Below, piece by piece: positions 45,156-62,444 of a DNA stretch of 64,000 nt. The stretch is from NCBI GenBank assembly GCA_913775305.1, contig CAJYIY010000082.1, positions 1-64,000 of the forward strand. Direction: 5' to 3'. The notes beneath the pieces are model-generated. The model ran no database searches. It was given only the letters and a program-made list of their open reading frames with translations, and was not told the origin of the DNA. Numbering within the stretch: the stretch's first letter is position 1; every line of letters starts with the position of its first letter. A program made the position numbers and the translations under genes. Origin of the DNA: an uncultured Erwinia sp. (lineage in GTDB: Bacteria; Pseudomonadota; Gammaproteobacteria; Enterobacterales; Enterobacteriaceae).

Positions 45156-45971
45156 TTATCAATTTCCTTTTATTGCAATCTGAAACACCTTAACACAAAA
45201 AATTTACAAAATTCAAAAATGATCCGTAGAAACATAACCCCCCCTTCACATTGATTAATTATCAGACAATGGTGTTTCAAACTGACAGTTAGTGTGCATT
45301 CTTAACGCACCCGCGCGTAAAGAATTCATCCTCACCGGATCATGTTACTCACACCAGTAGTGTTTTACTTAATCTGCCCTGCTGAGCGGATATGATCTGT
45401 TCATCTCAAAACAATTAATTGTCCGAATGAAAAGTCAAAATCAGCGCAGCGGTTAAAACGAATCCGCTCAACTGGCCCCTGACTGGGATTATATTCTATG
45501 CAGCGCACTTCACCGCCCGTCATGCCCAAGGCGTCCGGAAGTGCTTTTCAGGTCGTCGTTAACCCTATAAACAGTGAGTCAATGTTTCTGCCTGCGGCTG
45601 AAAACGTCATTTATGTGGCATGCGCTAATCTGTTTCCCCGATGCTCATCCGGCCTTCCCCCTCGCTTGTCGCGCAGCGCATTGCTTCGGCGCATCACTTG
45701 ATGTCTGCCGCACGGCTAACGTCGGCCAGAGATCTTCTCCCCTGCCCAGACTAGGTTAAACGGGTAACATCAGTTCATTACGGATGATCGATACGCCAGC
45801 AATAAGACGTGAAGTGATTACATTTATCCCGAGCCGATCGGGTTAAAAAACAGAACGACCTGAGACACCCGAGCACCACAATACATCACCAAAGCTTAAC
45901 TATTGACAGGGTATACAAAACTGCCTTTCTGGTGTGAGACTGGTCACAGTTTTTCAACCAGGTATCCACTT
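45156..45971. other. Gene-poor junction between the island and the dehydrogenase operon
   Basis: About 815 bp. AT-rich near 45160-45420, then GC-richer. I see no credible gene; small open frames around 45500-45760 lack homology and ribosome sites. A TTGACA (45903-45908) lies upstream of the dehydrogenase operon, followed by a perfect CRP half-site pair. This may contain the right end of the argW island, but no attR copy of argW was found. Confidence 0.45.
45933..45948. promoter_or_regulatory. Putative CRP site of the dehydrogenase operon
   Basis: TGTGAGACTGGTCACA has both CRP core half-sites (TGTGA, N6, TCACA) perfect. It ends only 23 bp before the first start codon and 24 bp after the TTGACA, so if that box is the -35 the site covers the start point and would suggest repression or an unusual arrangement. 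Confidence 0.6.
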
Positions 45972-46490
45972 ATGTTTACTCGCAGGAAGCTCATTTTTTC
46001 CGGTGCGGCGCTGATGGGCATGGCGGTGCTGAATCCGTTGCTATCCCGCGCCGCCACGCTTGCCGCCAGCAGCGACAGCCATCTCTTCTACCAGATTTCC
46101 CTGCTGTTAACCGGACGCGCTCGCCTCAGCCCGCTGGTAGCAGAGCGTGCCCTGCACGCGCTGGCGGCAGAAAGCGACCAGTTCGTTGCACGTTTGCGTC
46201 AGTTAACCGCTGCACTTCACTCTGCCGATATAACCAGTGCCGATCGACTTAACGGACATAAGCTGATGCAGGGGGTCAGTGGCGACACCATCAAAGCCAT
46301 CCTCTCTGCATGGTATCTTGGCTATACCGGCACTCCGGTACCGCTGCGTGCCGTCGACAGCACCCGCTTTATAACCTACACCGACGCGCTGATGTATGCC
46401 CCGACGCGGGATGCCACCGTCATCCCCTCTTATTCCCGGGGGCAGACTAATTACTGGATCCAGCCACCGGAAACCCTAAAAAAAGATTAA
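45972..46490 (+). CDS. Small subunit of a membrane FAD-dependent sugar/sugar-acid dehydrogenase
   Basis: 172-residue gamma subunit of the gluconate-2-dehydrogenase / sorbitol-dehydrogenase (FAD-SLDH) type, needed to export and hold the catalytic subunit. The ATG at 45972 starts a twin-arginine-like signal: 'MFTRRKLIFSGAALMGMAVL' then 'LSRAA'. The rest includes 'WYLGYTGTPVPLRAVDSTR' and 'YTDALMYAPTRDATVIPSYS', which match the family C-terminus. First gene of a three-gene operon, 27 bp before the large subunit. Confidence 0.83.
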   Translation: MFTRRKLIFSGAALMGMAVLNPLLSRAATLAASSDSHLFYQISLLLTGRARLSPLVAERALHALAAESDQFVARLRQLTAALHSADITSADRLNGHKLMQGVSGDTIKAILSAWYLGYTGTPVPLRAVDSTRFITYTDALMYAPTRDATVIPSYSRGQTNYWIQPPETLKKD

Positions 46491-46517
46491 CTCTTTTTCT
46501 TAACTGTGAGCACGACT

Positions 46518-48110
46518 ATGAGCCAGCAATACGATGCGGATGTGCTTGTCATCGGTTCAGGTGCGCTGGGCAGCAATGCCGCCACCACGCTTGCCCGAAT
46601 GGGCAAATCGGTGATTATTCTCGAAGCCGGAGTGAAGATCCCCCGGTGGAAAATCGTGGAAAACTTTCGTAATTCGCCGAAAAAAGGCAATTACAACTCG
46701 CCTTACCCGAATGAGCCGTGGGCGCATCACTCCTACGACGAGCAGTATATTGAAAACAGCGGTTCATTCGACTTCCGACCGGGCATGCTGAAGCTGGTAG
46801 GGGGAACCACCTGGCACTGGGCCTCGGCCTGCTGGCGCTATCTGCCCAATGACATGAAGCTGAATAGTCTGTACGGCGTGGGGCGTGACTGGCCGATAGA
46901 GTACAGCGATCTGGAGCCCTATTATCAGAAGGCCGAAGAGGCGCTGGGCGTCTGCGGTAGCGACAGTGACGATCAGAGCGGACAGGGCGGCAGCCACTTC
47001 CCGCCGCGCTCGAAGCCCTATCCGATGGAGCCGGAAGGCGAAACTTACCTCTTTCAGCGTTTGAAAAGACGTCTCGGCCCGGCCGGGTTTCGCTTTATTC
47101 ACGAACCTAACGGCCGCGCTACCCGCCCTTATGATGGCCGCCCGGCGTGCAGTGGTAATAACAACTGTATGCCGGTGTGCCCGATTGGCGCCATGTACAG
47201 CGGCGATAAACACGCTCAGCACGCAGAAGATGCAGGGGCGCGCCTGCTGACCGATGCCACCGCGTGGAAGCTGGAAACCGGCCTCCACGGTAAGATCGTT
47301 GCGGTGCACGTGCGCAGCTCAAAAGGGATCGATACGCGCCTGACGGCGAAATATTTCATTGTTGCCGCACACGGTCTGGAAACGCCGAAGCTGCTGCTGC
47401 TGTCCGATGTGGCTAACAGTTCCGATCAGGTCGGACGCAACCTGATGGATCATACCGGCATGGGGCTGCAGTTCCTCGCTGATGAACCGCTGTGGCCGGG
47501 GCGCGGTGCCGTGCAGCAGGGCGGAATTTTCAACTACCGCGACGGCGAGTTTCGCAAAGACCATGCTGCGATCAAGCACACCACGTCTAACCAGGTGCCG
47601 AACAGGGCGGTGACCGAGCGGCTGATTGCTCAGGGCCTGACGGGCAAAGCACTCGACGAACAGATCCGTCATCAGGCGGCGCGCTGGGTGGATATCTCAA
47701 CGGTGTTTGAGATGCTGCCGCACGCCACCAACACCGTGCGTCCGAGCGCCACGCGCAGGGATGCGCTCGGTATTCCCATGCTGACAGTACATTACGAGGT
47801 CGATGATTACGTGAAGGCGGGGAAATCCGTGGTTGAGGCCGATTACCGTCGTTTCGTCAGTCTGATGGGAGGCGAAGTGGTGAATGATAATACCGGCTGG
47901 CAAAACCGCGATCATCTGATGGGAACGGTGATTATGGGGTCCAATCCGCGAGATTCCGTGGTCAATCATGAATGCCGCAGCTGGGATCACAGCAATCTGT
48001 TCCTGGCCACGACCGGCGTGATCCCCGCTTCCGGGGTGATCAACCCTACGCTGACCGGCGTGGCGCTGAGTATCCGACTGGCCGAAATCATCGCGAGGGA
48101 AATAGGATGA
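46518..48110 (+). CDS. FAD-dependent GMC-family large subunit (gluconate / 2-ketogluconate dehydrogenase type)
   Basis: Catalytic flavoprotein, 530 residues from the ATG at 46518 (an in-frame GTG lies 12 bp upstream). The dinucleotide-binding start 'VLVIGSGALGSNAATTLAR' is at residues 9-27. 'KLVGGTTWHWASACWRYLP' near 90 and 'CMPVCPIGAMYSGDKHAQHA' near 220 are family landmarks. The active-site region near the C-terminus is 'MGTVIMGSNPRDSVVNHECR' and 'INPTLTGVALSIRLAE'. The length and GSGALG start resemble 2-keto-D-gluconate dehydrogenase more than the longer gluconate dehydrogenase, but sorbitol or other polyol oxidation remains possible. No signal of its own; export presumably with the small subunit. 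Confidence 0.83.
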   Translation: MSQQYDADVLVIGSGALGSNAATTLARMGKSVIILEAGVKIPRWKIVENFRNSPKKGNYNSPYPNEPWAHHSYDEQYIENSGSFDFRPGMLKLVGGTTWHWASACWRYLPNDMKLNSLYGVGRDWPIEYSDLEPYYQKAEEALGVCGSDSDDQSGQGGSHFPPRSKPYPMEPEGETYLFQRLKRRLGPAGFRFIHEPNGRATRPYDGRPACSGNNNCMPVCPIGAMYSGDKHAQHAEDAGARLLTDATAWKLETGLHGKIVAVHVRSSKGIDTRLTAKYFIVAAHGLETPKLLLLSDVANSSDQVGRNLMDHTGMGLQFLADEPLWPGRGAVQQGGIFNYRDGEFRKDHAAIKHTTSNQVPNRAVTERLIAQGLTGKALDEQIRHQAARWVDISTVFEMLPHATNTVRPSATRRDALGIPMLTVHYEVDDYVKAGKSVVEADYRRFVSLMGGEVVNDNTGWQNRDHLMGTVIMGSNPRDSVVNHECRSWDHSNLFLATTGVIPASGVINPTLTGVALSIRLAEIIAREIG

Positions 48111-49480
48111 TGAAGTCCCTGATAACCACGCTGCTGCTGATGGCAGCATGCAGCGCGGCGGCGAGCGATCCGCAGCCTGACCCGGCGCTGATTGCGCGGG
48201 GCAGATACCTGGCCGTGGCGGCCGACTGTGGTGCCTGTCACCGCCAGACCGTCAGCAACGGCGCGCCCTTTGCCGGTGGCAGCGTTATCGCCTCACCGAT
48301 GGGGCGCATTGTGGCCAGCAACATTACCCCGTCAAAACAATTTGGCATTGGTAACTACAGCGAGCAGCAGTTTGCCGATGCGCTGCGCAAAGGGATAGCC
48401 TCTGACAGCAGCAACCTCTATCCGGCTATGCCGTATACCGCTTACCGGGGAATGACCGATGCAGATACCCACGCCCTGTATGCTTATCTGATGCACGGAG
48501 TCGAACCTTACGATCGCGCACCAGCAGAAAATACCGCGCTGGCATTTCCGTTTAATATCCGTCAGCTGATGTGGGGCTGGAACCTGCTGTACCGGGACAA
48601 TCCGCCGTTTGAACCGCAGTCCGGTCTGAGCGCGCAGCTTAACCGCGGCAAATATCTGGTCGATGTGCTGGCTCACTGCAGCACCTGCCATACGCCTCGC
48701 AACATGATGATGGCCGAAGACAACCATCGTTATCTGTCCGGCGGCCCGTTAGAGGGCTGGTATGCACCCAACATCACTCCGGATAAATCAGGCATTGGCG
48801 ACTGGAGCCAGCAGGATCTGGTGACCTACCTGAAAACCGGCCACCTTGCAGGTAAAGCTCAGGCTGCGGGGCCAATGGGCGAAGCGGTTGAACACAGTTT
48901 CCGCTACCTGAAGGATGATGATTTACAGGCGATCGCAGCATGGATCAAGCAGGTTCCTGCACAGTCTGGCCCGCTGGCCCGGGTCGGCTCTGTGCCTGCC
49001 CTTGTCGATATCAATGCGACTGTCGGTGGACAGGGTGATCAGGCTTCGCTGGCGAACAGTGTATCCACCGACGGTGCGACACTCTATAGTGCTGCCTGCT
49101 CCAGCTGTCACGGGCAGACAGGCGAAGGAACAAAGGATAACTTCTATCCGTCACTGACGCACAACAGTGCGGTATCTGCCGCCACGCCGGACAATCTGGT
49201 GATGACGGTGGTTGAGGGTATTCATCGTCAGGGTAGCGATGCGGATGTCAGCATGCCGGCGTTTGCCGCCCAGTTGAACAATGCGCAGATTGCTTCGGTT
49301 ACCCACTACGTCCGCAGCCACTTTGCCGGTATCAGCCAGCCCGTGACGGCAGAGGACGTGAGCCAGATACGCAACGGTGGAGAACCCCCGTTCATCATGC
49401 GCTACAAAAACGGGTTTATGGCTGCTTGCGCACTGCTGCTGGTGCTGATCGTGCTGCTGCGCTGGCGCAGAAAGCGCTGA
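48107..49480 (+). CDS. Tri-haem cytochrome c subunit of the FAD-dependent dehydrogenase
   Basis: 457 residues. Signal peptide 'MMKSLITTLLLMAACSAAAS', three haem-binding motifs CGACH (near 45), CSTCH (near 190) and CSSCH (near 325), and a C-terminal anchor helix 'FMAACALLLVLIVLLRW' with a basic end. It carries electrons from the flavoprotein to ubiquinone. ATGA overlap with the large subunit. It is a paralogue of the cytochrome at 15174-16469. Confidence 0.9.
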   Translation: MMKSLITTLLLMAACSAAASDPQPDPALIARGRYLAVAADCGACHRQTVSNGAPFAGGSVIASPMGRIVASNITPSKQFGIGNYSEQQFADALRKGIASDSSNLYPAMPYTAYRGMTDADTHALYAYLMHGVEPYDRAPAENTALAFPFNIRQLMWGWNLLYRDNPPFEPQSGLSAQLNRGKYLVDVLAHCSTCHTPRNMMMAEDNHRYLSGGPLEGWYAPNITPDKSGIGDWSQQDLVTYLKTGHLAGKAQAAGPMGEAVEHSFRYLKDDDLQAIAAWIKQVPAQSGPLARVGSVPALVDINATVGGQGDQASLANSVSTDGATLYSAACSSCHGQTGEGTKDNFYPSLTHNSAVSAATPDNLVMTVVEGIHRQGSDADVSMPAFAAQLNNAQIASVTHYVRSHFAGISQPVTAEDVSQIRNGGEPPFIMRYKNGFMAACALLLVLIVLLRWRRKR

Positions 49481-49606
49481 AGTATGCGGAAAAATGGCCG
49501 GCATCTTACTCATTAATGACCCGGATGCCGGAGCAAGCCGCTTGATAAAAATTGATTTAAATCAATATACTTACCTCGACTTTTAGCCACAAAACAGGCG
49601 GCGAGA

Positions 49607-49658
49607 GGCCATTCATGTCGCCAGCCATGCATTTCATTCCCTCTACGCGGCAATTCAT
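49607..49658 (+). promoter_or_regulatory. Three direct YpdB-type boxes upstream of yhjX
   Basis: GGCCATTCAT (49607-49616), TGCATTTCAT (49628-49637) and GGCAATTCAT (49649-49658), each separated by exactly 11 bases (21-bp period). The known E. coli YpdB site upstream of yhjX is GGCATTTCAT-N11-GGCATTTCAT; these differ by one base each from it. The yhjX start is 83 bp downstream. A -10-like TTAAAAT lies at about 49691. Confidence 0.85.
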
Positions 49659-49741
49659 GCCCTTTCTGACCGCCAGGGTCGCAGGCGGGCTTAAAATTTC
49701 TCCAGTTTAAAGATTCTTAGCATTCCCACTGGGAGAAATAC

Positions 49742-50968
49742 ATGAACGCACCAGCATTAAGCAGCAGCGTAAACCGCACCCGTTGGTTAACCCTGACTGG
49801 CACCATCATGACTCAGTTTGCCCTCGGATCGGTTTACACCTGGAGCCTGTTCAACAGCCACCTGTCCAGCAAGCTGGATGCACCAATCGGTAAGGTGGCG
49901 TTGGCCTTTGGCCTGCTGAGCCTGGGCCTGGCGCTGGCTTCTTCCGTCGCCGGGAAGCTGCAGGATCGTTTCGGCGTCCGTAAGGTCACGCTGTCTGCCG
50001 GACTGCTGATGGCCGCCGGGCTGATGCTGACTTCGCAGGCGGACAGCCTGTTTATGCTCTACCTCACTGCGGGCGTTCTGGTCGGCCTGGCAGATGGTGC
50101 GGGCTACCTGATCACCCTGTCTAACTGCGTGAAGTGGTTCCCGGAGCGTAAAGGACTGATCTCCGCCTGCTCAATCGGGGCTTATGGGTTGGGCAGCCTG
50201 GGCTTTAAATTTATCTGCAGCTACCTGCTCAGCGTCAACAGCCTGGAAACCACCTTTATTATCTGGGGCGGACTGGCGATGGTGTTGATCGTGCTGGGAT
50301 CGCTGATGATGAAGGATGCGCCGCTGCAGAACGCCTCAGCCCGCCGCAGCACTCAGCCGGTTCGTGATTACACCCTGGCAGAATCCATGCGCCTGCCGCA
50401 GTACTGGATGCTGGCGCTGATGTTCCTGACGGCCTGTATGAGCGGTCTGTATGTCATTGGTGTAGCGAAGGATATCGGTGAAAGCCTCGTTCACCTCAGT
50501 GCCCAGACTGCTGCCAGCGCGGTAACCATTATTGCTATTGCTAACCTGAGTGGCCGTCTGATACTGGGCATTATGTCAGATAAAGTGGCGCGCATTCGTG
50601 TCATCAGCCTGGCGCAGGTGGTCTCTTTGTGTGGCATGAGCATCCTGCTGTTCAGCAACATGAGTGAAACGACTTTCTTTGTTGCCGTAGCCTGTGTCGC
50701 CTTCAGCTTTGGCGGAACCATTACCGTTTACCCGTCGCTGGTGAGTGATTTCTTTGGGCTCAATAACCTGACCAAAAACTACGGGGTGATTTATCTCGGC
50801 TTCGGTGTCGGTAGCGTGCTTGGCTCGCTGATCGCCTCGCTGTTCGGCGGTTTTATGGTTACCTTCAGCCTGATTATGGCCCTGTTGGTGGTTTCCCTGC
50901 TGATGTCGGCGACGATCCGCATGCCAAACGCCAGCGCGGAGCAGAAAAGTGAGTTGCAGCACGCCTGA
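49742..50968 (+). CDS. yhjX: YhjX, pyruvate-inducible MFS transporter (OFA family)
   Basis: Major facilitator of the oxalate:formate antiporter family, 408 residues with 12 helices. Near-identical to E. coli YhjX across 'ITQFALGSVYTWSLFN'-type N-terminus (here 'MTQFALGSVYTWSLFNSHL'), 'SNCVKWFPERKGLISA' near 132 and 'FFGLNNLTKNYGVIYLGFG' near 335. In E. coli it is the main target of the YpdA/YpdB system, induced by pyruvate; its substrate is not settled. Ribosome site GGGAGAAATAC before the ATG. Confidence 0.94.
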   Translation: MNAPALSSSVNRTRWLTLTGTIMTQFALGSVYTWSLFNSHLSSKLDAPIGKVALAFGLLSLGLALASSVAGKLQDRFGVRKVTLSAGLLMAAGLMLTSQADSLFMLYLTAGVLVGLADGAGYLITLSNCVKWFPERKGLISACSIGAYGLGSLGFKFICSYLLSVNSLETTFIIWGGLAMVLIVLGSLMMKDAPLQNASARRSTQPVRDYTLAESMRLPQYWMLALMFLTACMSGLYVIGVAKDIGESLVHLSAQTAASAVTIIAIANLSGRLILGIMSDKVARIRVISLAQVVSLCGMSILLFSNMSETTFFVAVACVAFSFGGTITVYPSLVSDFFGLNNLTKNYGVIYLGFGVGSVLGSLIASLFGGFMVTFSLIMALLVVSLLMSATIRMPNASAEQKSELQHA

Positions 50969-57869: not shown

Positions 57870-59105
57870 TCAGAGCGTTTCCGCGCTACCTTTCGCGGCA
57901 GAGGGTAATATCCCCTCTGCCCGGAACATCGTTTTAATCCCTCTCACCGCCTGGCGAATACGATCGCTGTTTTCAATCAGCGCGAAGCGCACGTGAGTGT
58001 CACCGTAGTCGCCAAAGCCAATCCCCGGCGAAACGCAGACTTTGGCTTCCTGCAGCAGCAGTTTGGCAAACTCCAGCGAGCCAAGGTGCGCATACCGATC
58101 GGGAATTTTGGCCCAGACGTACATTGAGGCTTTAGGATTGTCGACCATCCATCCCGCTTCATGCAGCCCTTTCACCAGCACATCGCGGCGGCGCTTGTAC
58201 TGCTCGGCGATATCACGCACGCACTGCTGATCGCCCTCCAGAGCGGCAATCGCCGCCACCTGTAGCGGAGTAAAGGTGCCGTAGTCGTGATAGCTTTTAA
58301 TCCGTGCCAGAGCGGCAACCAGATCTTTATTACCCACCATAAAGCCGATACGCCAGCCGGCCATATTGTAGCTTTTTGACAGGGTGAAGAACTCTACCGC
58401 CACGTCACGCGCGCCCGGCACTTCCATAATCGACGGAGCTTTCCAGCCGTCATAGACAATATCGGCATAGGCCAGGTCATGTACCACCAGGACGTTGTAC
58501 TGCTTCGCCAGCGCAATGACGCGCTCAAAGAAGTCCAGCTCCACGCACTGGGCGGTTGGATTGGACGGGAAGCCCAGAATCATCATTTTAGGCTTGGGGT
58601 AGCTTTCGCGGATGGCACGCTCGAGTTCGTTAAAGAAATCGACGCCCGCCACCAGCGGAACGGAACGCACCTGGGCACCGGCGATGACCGCGCCGTAAAT
58701 ATGAATAGGGTAACTGGGATTGGGCACCAGCACCGTATCACCGTGATCGAGCGTTGCCAGCATCAGGTGCGCCAGCCCCTCTTTCGAGCCAATGGTGACA
58801 ATGGCTTCCGATTCCGGATCGATTTCAACCTGATAACGATCGGCGTACCAGCGGGAAATCGCCCGGCGCAGACGCGGAATGCCGCGTGAGGTGGAGTAGC
58901 CGTGGGTATCTTCGCGCTGGGCAACGGTGCAGAGTTTCTCTACGATATGCGGTGGCGTAGGGCCATCGGGGTTGCCCATGCTGAAATCAATAATATCTTC
59001 GCCACGACGGCGTGCGGCCATCTTCAGTTCCGCGGTGATGTTGAACACATAGGGAGGAAGGCGTTCTATACGGGAGAAACGACGGGGTGAACTGTTATCA
59101 GCCAT
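57870..59105 (-). CDS. alaC: Glutamate-pyruvate aminotransferase AlaC
   Basis: PLP-dependent class I/II aminotransferase making alanine from pyruvate and glutamate. 411 residues from the ATG at 59105, aligned with E. coli AlaC (412). '[20 protein letters not shown]' near residue 44, PLP-lysine in '[18 protein letters not shown]' near 243 (S-K-S-Y-N-M) and Asp in '[15 protein letters not shown]' near 205. The neighbouring ypdAB pyruvate sensor suggests a pyruvate-linked gene cluster. Confidence 0.96.
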
Positions 59106-59224
59106 AGGATTTTGCTCGCTTACGTTAGCGCCCGGACCGTCCGAGCGACGCCGGCCACTGCGGTGGCCGTACAACGAACATAGCGCACTCATCCAACAGC
59201 TGTCGATAGCACGGATAACATTTT

Positions 59225-59752: not shown

Positions 59753-59988
59753 AGCTGTCTCACACACGGGGGCGTTCCCCCTGCCAGCGTGACCTGTCAT
59801 GTGGTTTGAGGGAGTTGCCGTCAGTGACGTTAGGGGATTAATTTATGTCACCCGGGCCATCATAAACATCGTCTTGCTCAATATTTTCCTGTTAATCTGT
59901 TAAACGCAGCCTAATCTGCCGCAGGCATAGCGCATCAGCCCGCCTTTTCTTATCATAGTGGCATTGCCACCCGTCAGCCGAGATGCCC

Positions 59989-61692
59989 GTGCATTCCATG
60001 TTTGAAATGTTGCTCGCCGTATTTGACCGCGCAGCGCTGATGCTGATCAGTCTGTTTTTTATCACCCGCACCCGCCATTTTCGCCAGCTGTTGCAGAAGG
60101 ATGAGCACTCGCGCCAGGAGCTGGTAGCCGTAACGGCCATCTTCTCGCTGTTTGCTCTGTTCAGCACATGGACCGGGATTAACGTCGAAGGCTCGCTGGT
60201 TAACGTGCGCACTATTGCGATTATGTCTGGCGGGATCCTGTTTGGTCCCTGGGTGGGCATTACCACCGGCATCATCGCCGGAGTACACCGTTTTCTGATT
60301 GATATTCACGGCGTGTCATCGGTGCCCTGCCTGATCACCAGCATCGCGGCCGGTGTCGCCTCCGGCTGGATTAACCTGAAGGTGGTCAAAGAGAAACGCT
60401 GGAGCGCGGGGATCGTCGGCGGCATGCTGTGCGAATTGCTGACCATGCTGCTGATTATCCTCTGGGCTTCACCGACCTCGTTAGGAATGGATATCGTGTC
60501 TGAAATCGCCATTCCGATGATCCTCGGTGCCAGCAGCATTGGCCTTATCGTGCTGCTGGTGCAAAGCGTGGAGGGGGAAAAGGAAGCCAGCGCGGCGCGT
60601 CAGGCCAAGCTGGCGCTGGATATTGCCAATAAAACCCTGCCGCTGTTTCGCCAGATCAACAGCCACTCCCTGCGTCAGGTGTGCGAAATCATTCGCAGCG
60701 ATATCAAAGCGGACGCCGTGGCGATCACCGACAAACATCAAATTATGGCTTACGTGGGCTTCGGTGAGGAGAACTACTACAACGGCGATGACGGCATCAG
60801 CCCGACCACCTCGGCGGCGATTGCCGAGGGTAAAATTATCATCAAAAATAATGATGAGGCCCATCGCACGCCGGAAATCCATTCAATGATTGTGATCCCG
60901 CTGTGGGAGAAAGGAGAAGTCACCGGCACGCTGAAGATTTACTACTGCCATGCACACCGCATTACCTCGTCGCTGAAGGAGATGGCGATTGGCCTGTCGC
61001 AGATCATTTCCACCCAGCTTGAAGTGTCACGTGCCGAACAGCTGCGGGAGATGGCCAACAAAGCCGAGCTGAGGGCGCTGCAGAGCAAGATTAATCCCCA
61101 CTTTCTGTTCAATGCGCTCAACGCCATTTCCTCCTCTATCCGACTGAACCCGGATACGGCGCGGCAGCTGATCACCAACCTGTCGCGCTATCTGCGCTAC
61201 AACCTTGAACTGAACGACGACGAGATTATCGATATCAAAAAAGAGCTGTATCAGGTGAAAGACTACATCGCTATTGAGCAGGCACGATTTGGCGATAAGC
61301 TGACGGTTATCTACGATATTCAGGATGATGTCAGCTGTTCACTGCCGAGCCTGCTGATCCAGCCGCTGATAGAAAATGCGATTGTTCACGGTATTCATCC
61401 CTGCCGGGGCAAGGGCGTGGTGACGCTGAGTATTCAGGATCGGGGCGATCGCGTGCGTATTGCGGTTCGCGACACCGGCAACGGCATTGCCGAAGAGGTT
61501 ATTGCCCGGGTGGAAAATAATGAGATGCCGGGGAATAAAATCGGCCTGCTCAACGTTCACCATCGGGTCAGGCTACTGTATGGTGAAGGCCTGCATATCC
61601 ATCGCCTGAATCCGGGCACGGAAATCTCTTTCTGCATCAGTAAAAATGGGGCACCGCTGCCGGAAAACCAGCGTATTTCGCTGTCGGTATAA
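59989..61692 (+). CDS. ypdA: Pyruvate-sensing histidine kinase YpdA
   Basis: LytS-type membrane sensor kinase, 567 residues from the GTG at 59989, which matches the E. coli N-terminus ([19 protein letters not shown]; here [19 protein letters not shown]). An in-frame ATG 6 bp upstream is the alternative. Six-helix 5TM-LYT sensor (about 1-200), GAF domain (about 215-340) and the His-kinase domain with phosphorylated His in '[20 protein letters not shown]' near 365. N box is '[15 protein letters not shown]' near 470 and '[12 protein letters not shown]' follows. Twenty-four bp before ypdB. It signals extracellular pyruvate in E. coli. Confidence 0.94.
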
Positions 61693-61715: not shown

Positions 61716-62444
61716 GTGAAAGCGATTATTGTTGAAGATGAGTTTCTGGCCCAACAGGAGCTGAGCTGGCTTATCCGCCAGCACAGCCAGATTGTCATTG
61801 AAGCGATTTTTGATGACGGGCTGGACGTGTTGAAATATCTGCAAAGCCATCAGGTGGACGTGATATTTCTTGATATTAATATTCCCTCGCTGGACGGCAT
61901 GCTGCTGGCGCAAAACATCAGCAAGTTCGCCAGTAAGCCGCTGATCGTGTTTATTACCGCCTGTAAAGAGCACGCCGTGGACGCCTTCGAGCTGGAAGCA
62001 TTCGACTATATCCTTAAGCCGTATCACGAAATGCGCATCGTGACCCTGCTGCGCAAGCTGGAAAACCACGTCCGACAGGATCAGACACAGAATAATGCCC
62101 CGCCCCGCCCGGCTTCCCACAGCATCAATCTGGTAAAAGACGAGCGCATTATCGTTACCGATATCAACGATATTTATTATGCCGAAGCGCACGAAAAGCT
62201 GACGTTTGTTTATACCCGGCGGGAAGAGTTTGTCATGTCGATGAACATGACCGAGTTTTGCAGTCGTCTGCCGGAGGAGTACTTCTTCCGCTGTCACCGC
62301 TCTTACTGCGTTAACCTCAGTAAGATCCGCGAGATCGAGCCCTGGTTCAACAATACCTATATTCTCAAGCTGCGCGACCTGGAATTTCAGGTGCCGGTAA
62401 GCCGGAGCAAGGTGAAGGCGTTTCGCCAGCTGATGCGCCTGTGA
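61716..62444 (+). CDS. ypdB: LytTR response regulator YpdB
   Basis: 242 residues from a GTG at 61716. Receiver domain: 'MKAIIVEDEFLAQQELSWLI', phospho-acceptor in 'DVIFLDINIPSLDGMLL' (Asp53) and Lys in 'DYILKPYHEM'. C-terminal LytTR DNA-binding domain: 'INLVKDERIIVTDINDIYYA' to 'FFRCHRSYCVNLSKIREIEP'. It binds direct repeats upstream of yhjX in E. coli; matching repeats occur at 49607-49658 here. Confidence 0.95.
   Translation: MKAIIVEDEFLAQQELSWLIRQHSQIVIEAIFDDGLDVLKYLQSHQVDVIFLDINIPSLDGMLLAQNISKFASKPLIVFITACKEHAVDAFELEAFDYILKPYHEMRIVTLLRKLENHVRQDQTQNNAPPRPASHSINLVKDERIIVTDINDIYYAEAHEKLTFVYTRREEFVMSMNMTEFCSRLPEEYFFRCHRSYCVNLSKIREIEPWFNNTYILKLRDLEFQVPVSRSKVKAFRQLMRL

Follow-up and report, generated by a model that had tools for sequence, protein, structure and literature searches.

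The question raised by this locus is how many binding sites the yhjX promoter holds for the response regulator YpdB, and whether their number sets the site apart from that of E. coli. In the window, by which is meant the whole 64,000-nucleotide stretch that was analyzed, three phased direct repeats lie upstream of yhjX, and ypdA and ypdB are encoded in the same neighborhood. The site probably (roughly 0.8) serves as the yhjX operator through which the pyruvate-responsive YpdA/YpdB (PyrS/PyrR) system acts, and it has the form common in the family, namely three half-sites in which the middle box and either of its neighbors cooperate. What is new here is a putative third half-site, conserved in sequence, within an operator that was already known.

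The array and its neighborhood in the window

The features under discussion are as follows.

49607-49616, + strand: box 1, GGCCATTCAT, a repeat and matrix match, with a 3' extension GTC to 49619
49628-49637, + strand: box 2, core repeat TGCATTTCAT, 13-bp unit TGCATTTCATTCC to 49640, counterpart of E. coli site A
49649-49658, + strand: box 3, core repeat GGCAATTCAT, 13-bp unit GGCAATTCATGCC to 49661, counterpart of E. coli site B
49742-50968, + strand: yhjX orthologue, encoding an MFS transporter of the oxalate/formate antiporter family (NCBIfam) with 68% identity to E. coli YhjX
57870-59192, - strand: alaC-like aminotransferase, named by position and Pfam Aminotran_1_2
59983-61692, + strand: ypdA (pyrS), LytS-type sensor kinase (5TM-5TMR_LYT, GAF, His_kinase, HATPase_c)
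61716-62444, + strand: ypdB (pyrR), response regulator (Response_reg, LytTR) with Asp53 present

The three 10-bp direct repeats begin at 49607, 49628, and 49649, exactly where an earlier note on this DNA had placed them. With their 11-bp spacers they have a period of exactly 21 bp, or about two helical turns. Boxes 1, 2, and 3 agree with GGCATTTCAT at 8, 9, and 9 of 10 positions, respectively, such that direct repeats of this type with the 11-bp spacer are indeed found upstream of yhjX. The 3' extension of box 1 is incomplete, reading GTC where the family consensus is TCC. By eye, no further box was found 21 bp before or after the array.

At three or fewer mismatches, the sole matches to the pair pattern in the window are two overlapping two-box matches with 3 and 2 mismatches (0.01 expected from shuffles), and no other match at this tolerance was found in the organism's own assembly (3.96 Mb, 134 contigs, 91.7% complete). 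Phased TTCAT repeats do arise in some genomes by chance or as short tandem repeats, and it might be argued that the array is of that kind. With a three-box weight matrix, however, the site scores 58.2, as compared to -2.9 for the next position in the window and a maximum of 6.3 among 100 windows simulated with a first-order Markov model, and the 21-bp register is conserved across genera. The probability that the array reflects chance or low sequence complexity is practically negligible.

Additional arrays in the same genome were considered as further targets and rejected. A search with the extended pair pattern, allowing at most one mismatch, returned 11 matches, of which two lie at yhjX. Six of the nine others scored no higher than -10.8 with the three-box matrix. 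Two of the nine have both TTCAT cores in the 21-bp register (G000:C29:17649-17674 and G000:C42:6105-6130), and neither scores as a three-box array.

The yhjX reading frame starts 83 bp downstream of the array, and among the 80 named loci compared its product is closest to those of Erwinia sp. JUb26 (93%) and Pantoea coffeiphila (92%). YpdA displays the 5TM-5TMR_LYT, GAF, and kinase domains of a LytS-type kinase. YpdB, with its receiver and LytTR domains and Asp53, is 75% identical to the E. coli protein, which is named PyrR in RefSeq. The alaC-like gene adjoins ypdA, as alaC does in E. coli. The assignment of the repeats as YpdB-type boxes, likewise proposed in the earlier note, is supported by the repeat type, the 21-bp period, and the intact ypdAB pair nearby. 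On the upstream side of yhjX, positions 45903-49480 hold three consecutive genes for an FAD/GMC dehydrogenase with a cytochrome c subunit (FAD-SLDH, GMC_oxred, Cytochrom_C).

Conservation of the three boxes across the family

A sample of 392 genomes of the family was searched using cut-offs of E <= 1e-120 for YhjX and E <= 1e-60 for YpdB. YhjX was found in 151 genomes and YpdB in 191: 149 had both, 42 had YpdB only, and 199 had neither. YhjX without YpdB was limited to two genomes, G026 and G313, the assembly of the latter being 84% complete. The promoter set comprised 149 of the 151 yhjX genomes, the window included, from 50 genera; G019 and G026 were left out because coordinates were missing. 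The anatomy of the site, its conservation, and its co-occurrence with ypdB are matters of direct observation.

For the third-core test, each promoter was anchored on its best two-box pair, and a TTCAT core was then sought at -21 or +42. An exact third core was present in 125 of the 149 promoters and in 46 of the 50 genera, with none in genera g36, g109, g113, and g137. When the register was shifted by -9 to +10 bp, the count fell to 0, apart from 1 at -5 and 4 at +4. With one mismatch allowed, 148 of the 149 promoters had a third core, and the ten tested shifts yielded 0-6 except for +4, at which 74 of the 149 matched, a count that may be read as self-overlap of box 1 through TCATTCAT. The outcome that the earlier note had named as speaking against its reading, a lack of conservation of the repeats in close relatives with intact ypdAB, did not arise.

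In genus-weighted columns the site resolves into three units, each about 13 bp long, which are separated by variable stretches of 8 bp. The consensus sequences are nGYCATTCATTCC for box 1, kGCATTTCATTCC for box 2, and kGCAnTTCATGCC for box 3; box 1 thus has its own consensus, GYCATTCAT, and boxes 2 and 3 have GCATTTCAT. In the 36 genera with at least two genomes each, the mean within-genus mismatch was 0.084, 0.026, and 0.043 for boxes 1, 2, and 3, against 0.340 and 0.289 for the spacers and 0.408 for the 30 bases upstream. Box 1 varied less than spacer 1 in 33 of these 36 genera (with one tie) and less than the upstream stretch in 34. Both the columns and the within-genus counts lean towards the boxes because the register was chosen to maximize all three, a bias from which the anchor test is free.

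Box 2 is the most conserved of the three and is the relatively best box in 32 of the 50 genera. Boxes 1 and 3 each score at least 10 of 22 in 49 of the 50 genera, and box 1 exceeds box 3 in 25. Box 3 is degraded and boxes 1 and 2 are kept in Pantoea rodasii (L072), P. eucrina (L111), and a record named Enterobacter cancerogenus (L078).

In E. coli MG1655, the yhjX promoter reads CGTCATTCAT-N11-GGCATTTCAT-N11-GGCATTTCAT, with box 1, CGTCATTCAT, positioned exactly 21 bp upstream of the published "site A." Judged by this register, E. coli sites A and B correspond to boxes 2 and 3 of three. When 5,426 E. coli genomes were searched for the 121-bp E. coli promoter stretch, 5,372 had a match, and in 5,327 the identity was at least 95%; in two hand-picked variant strains the boxes are unchanged apart from the variable first base of boxes 1 and 2.

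These data bear directly on the proposal in the earlier note that the third box sets the site apart from the E. coli form. Three boxes are certainly present in the window, and as a peculiarity of its lineage the third could have strengthened induction beyond that in E. coli. MG1655 has CGTCATTCAT in register, however, and 46 of the 50 sampled genera likewise have the third exact core. In addition, the genus to which the window belongs has a below-average box 1, with a mean over four genomes of 11.4 of 22.1. We regard such a peculiarity as very improbable, and a box 1 unique to the window's lineage was rejected in view of the E. coli box and the 125 promoters. Rather, box 1 appears to be a putative YpdB half-site in most genera sampled, E. 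coli included.

Promoter geometry and elements upstream of the boxes

Two further features are of relevance to the position of the array.

49692-49697, + strand: TAAAAT, candidate -10 element of the yhjX promoter, at an offset of 85 from the start of box 1
49552-49565, no strand assigned: TTGATTTAAATCAA, a perfect FNR-type palindrome centered 48 bp upstream of box 1

The columns at offsets 85, 86, and 90 (T, A, and T) carry 1.08, 0.95, and 1.05 bits, a pattern spaced like a -10 hexamer. The best -10-like hexamer lies at offset 84-85 in 118 of the 149 promoters with ties decided towards 85 and in 65 with ties split, 92 promoters being tied; because of this drop the -10 element is treated as possible only. 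If TAAAAT is used, and assuming a start about 7 bp later, the boxes would be centered at about -51, -72, and -93, upstream of the -35 region. A competing sigma70-like match is located at 49542-49571, and the palindrome lies within it. TTGATTTAAATCAA fits the FNR consensus. G353 and five named relatives (L034-L038) likewise have an exact TTGATN4ATCAA, at a distance of 48-49 bp from box 1 on its upstream side.

A second conserved element, GATAGTGGNTACTNAC, occurs 49 bp upstream of box 1 in E. coli (L033). With three or fewer mismatches in 14 it was present in 74 of the 149 promoters and 26 of the 50 genera, as compared to at most 4 genomes for 40 permuted patterns. The promoter in the window has no match that good, the best having 5 mismatches.

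Boxes behind ypdB and the probable history of the array

For other ARRANGEMENTS, the stretch behind ypdB was read in 31 of the 42 genomes with YpdB only, including G151 and G241. All 31 have a three-box match of at least 30.9 downstream of ypdB. In 17 of them the box-1 position overlaps with the final codons of ypdB, and the box-1 match there is consequently in part a coding one. The next gene encodes a YhjX-like protein of 46-48% identity in 8 of the first 9 genomes examined, and one of 44-45% follows ypdB in G151 and G241. No open reading frame of 100 amino acids was found behind ypdB in the ninth, L269. With the 39-position matrix, sites can thus be located at transporters linked to ypdB even where a genus lacks a close YhjX.

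In all 11 YpdB genomes of the Aeromonas-like family f25, one of which is 91.7% identical to an Aeromonas caviae record, and in one f6 genome, yhjX (68-72%) lies directly behind ypdB. Two free boxes are present there, TGTCATTCAT (box-1 type) and TGCATTTCAT. This two-box form in Aeromonas-like genomes can be set beside an earlier study which, in its available text, reported no YpdB motif for S. marcescens or A. hydrophila (PMC5552118). In more distant families, a two-box pair scoring at least 8 within 20 bases of the ypdB end was observed in 9 of 15 stretches (5/6 in f2, 3/5 in f12, 1/2 in f6, and 0/2 in f10), whereas the best of 150 shuffled stretches reached -4.0. The pairs in f2, f12, and f10 (8 of 13 stretches) are weaker than the f25/f6 form.

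Given that the outgroup families showed two free boxes only, two free boxes probably represent the older state. This finding might seem to revive the notion of a box added in the window's lineage, but the third box as a free-standing element is probably older than the split between E. coli and Erwinia. Note that in L279, L280, L283, L292-L303, and others, in which the target directly follows ypdB, a partial box is formed by the final codons of that gene (QLMR or similar). It precedes the first free box by exactly 21 bp, and the tail of ypdB may therefore have given rise to box 1.

The published binding model and a three-site alternative

In the available text of PMC4847170, E. coli YpdB (PyrR) is described as binding at yhjX to two direct repeats of GGCATTTCAT with an N11 spacer, and two sites are named. 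The E. coli promoter and that in the window share the regulator, target, repeat, spacing, and, at the DNA level, the third box; they differ in that the available text on E. coli names two sites. No third YpdB box is described in the YpdB literature searched, which comprised titles, the starts of abstracts, and the available text of PMC4847170 and PMC5552118.

The fragment employed for SPR in PMC4847170 (Table 1 and methods), described as matching all DNase I-protected bases, contains the whole of box 1, which is also retained in the A and B mutants. According to the same available text, mutation of A abolished binding and mutation of B did not, the data were fitted to two interactions rather than three, and an "A first, then B" (AB-BA) model was put forward that might hold for LytTR regulators in general.

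A cooperative three-site array predicts the same asymmetry and could explain it. Site A is the middle box, so that its loss leaves boxes 1 and 3 separated by 42 bp; site B is an end box, and its loss leaves the pair of boxes 1 and 2 intact. In such an arrangement, three half-sites of about 13 bp would recur every 21 bp on the same side of the helix, the last of them ending some 30 bp short of the candidate -10 element. YpdB~P would bind the strong middle box first, and a second monomer would then be recruited either to box 1 on the upstream side or to box 3 on the downstream side, each 21 bp away. Box 3, adjoining the -35 region, would help to recruit RNA polymerase, and box 1 would stabilize the middle-box complex. 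The order of binding, the recruitment, and the roles of the boxes are what we infer from the arrangement. It is further suggested, with somewhat less than even confidence, that the asymmetry stems from three-site geometry and not from an obligatory order, and that pulses of yhjX expression are perhaps shaped by competition of the outer boxes for the middle monomer.

A different reading is that only boxes 2 and 3 are YpdB sites, occupied sequentially as in the AB-BA model, and that box 1 is conserved for another protein with a similar site. The two sites named and the two interactions fitted in the available text of PMC4847170 agree with it, as do the separate consensus of box 1, with C4 and A5, and the other conserved elements just upstream. 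Box 1, however, has the same TTCAT core, the same CC extension, and the exact 21-bp register. Moreover, the f25 genomes have no more than two free boxes downstream of ypdB, one of them of the box-1 type, and box 1 outlasts box 3 in some Pantoea. A separate protein at box 1 is therefore considered unlikely, and three YpdB half-sites remain the preferred reading. If it is correct, the AB-BA model rests on fragments that contain an unnamed third half-site, and the three-box geometry provides a simple alternative to it. The architecture of a well-studied LytTR target would then be revised to three conserved half-sites in most sampled genera, including E. coli.

Linkage of regulator and target

The gap between the yhjX stop and the ypdA start is 9,015 bp, in fair agreement with the figure of about 10 kb in the earlier note, and the two loci are indeed far apart in E. 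coli, at about 1.2 Mb by record coordinates. As a special feature of the window, the linkage did not hold up; relatives share it, and such proximity is recorded in Table 1 of PMC5552118. Its novelty was rejected on both grounds. Distances of 3.5-16 kb between yhjX and ypdB were measured in at least 15 genomes from six genus codes (g1, g21, g87, g99, g130, and g146), and in g137 the two genes adjoin in both genomes checked of the three sampled. Among the 80 named loci, ypdB lies within the yhjX flank (10 kb or less) in three: Erwinia oleae, E. piriflorinigrans, and Tatumella morbirosei.

According to the available portion of PMC5552118, putative targets are close to ypdAB in Yersinia and Aeromonas and have neighboring locus tags in Serratia. 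As in those organisms, the regulator and its transporter target share one neighborhood in the window. Unlike their close arrangement, yhjX and ypdAB in the window are 9 kb apart.

Related LytTR operators and further arrays

The array in the window shares with triplet LytTR operators the arrangement of three direct repeats at even spacing. RcoM and CoxC employ such operators, and CoxC requires all three repeats for efficient binding, as stated in the available text of PMC11347149. What the two have in common is the set of three such repeats as a target for a LytTR domain, in the window a predicted one. The differences are that the RcoM/CoxC repeats are 8 bp in length (TTCNNGCA and TTNNNGCN), that these systems respond to CO, and that CoxC is a repressor. 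By inspection, the repeat unit in the window is GNCATTTCATNCC rather than TTCNNGCA. The array may thus work like a triplet operator but does not represent an RcoM/CoxC site.

Two genomes of g142 (L263:1849-1924 and L264:4479-4554) also have YpdB-like arrays, in which as many as four repeats occur and the last is degenerate. They lie upstream of a xanthine/uracil-type permease, a possible second target. Finally, one genome (L262 / G317:C39) has four in-phase boxes upstream of a YhjX paralogue of 61% identity.
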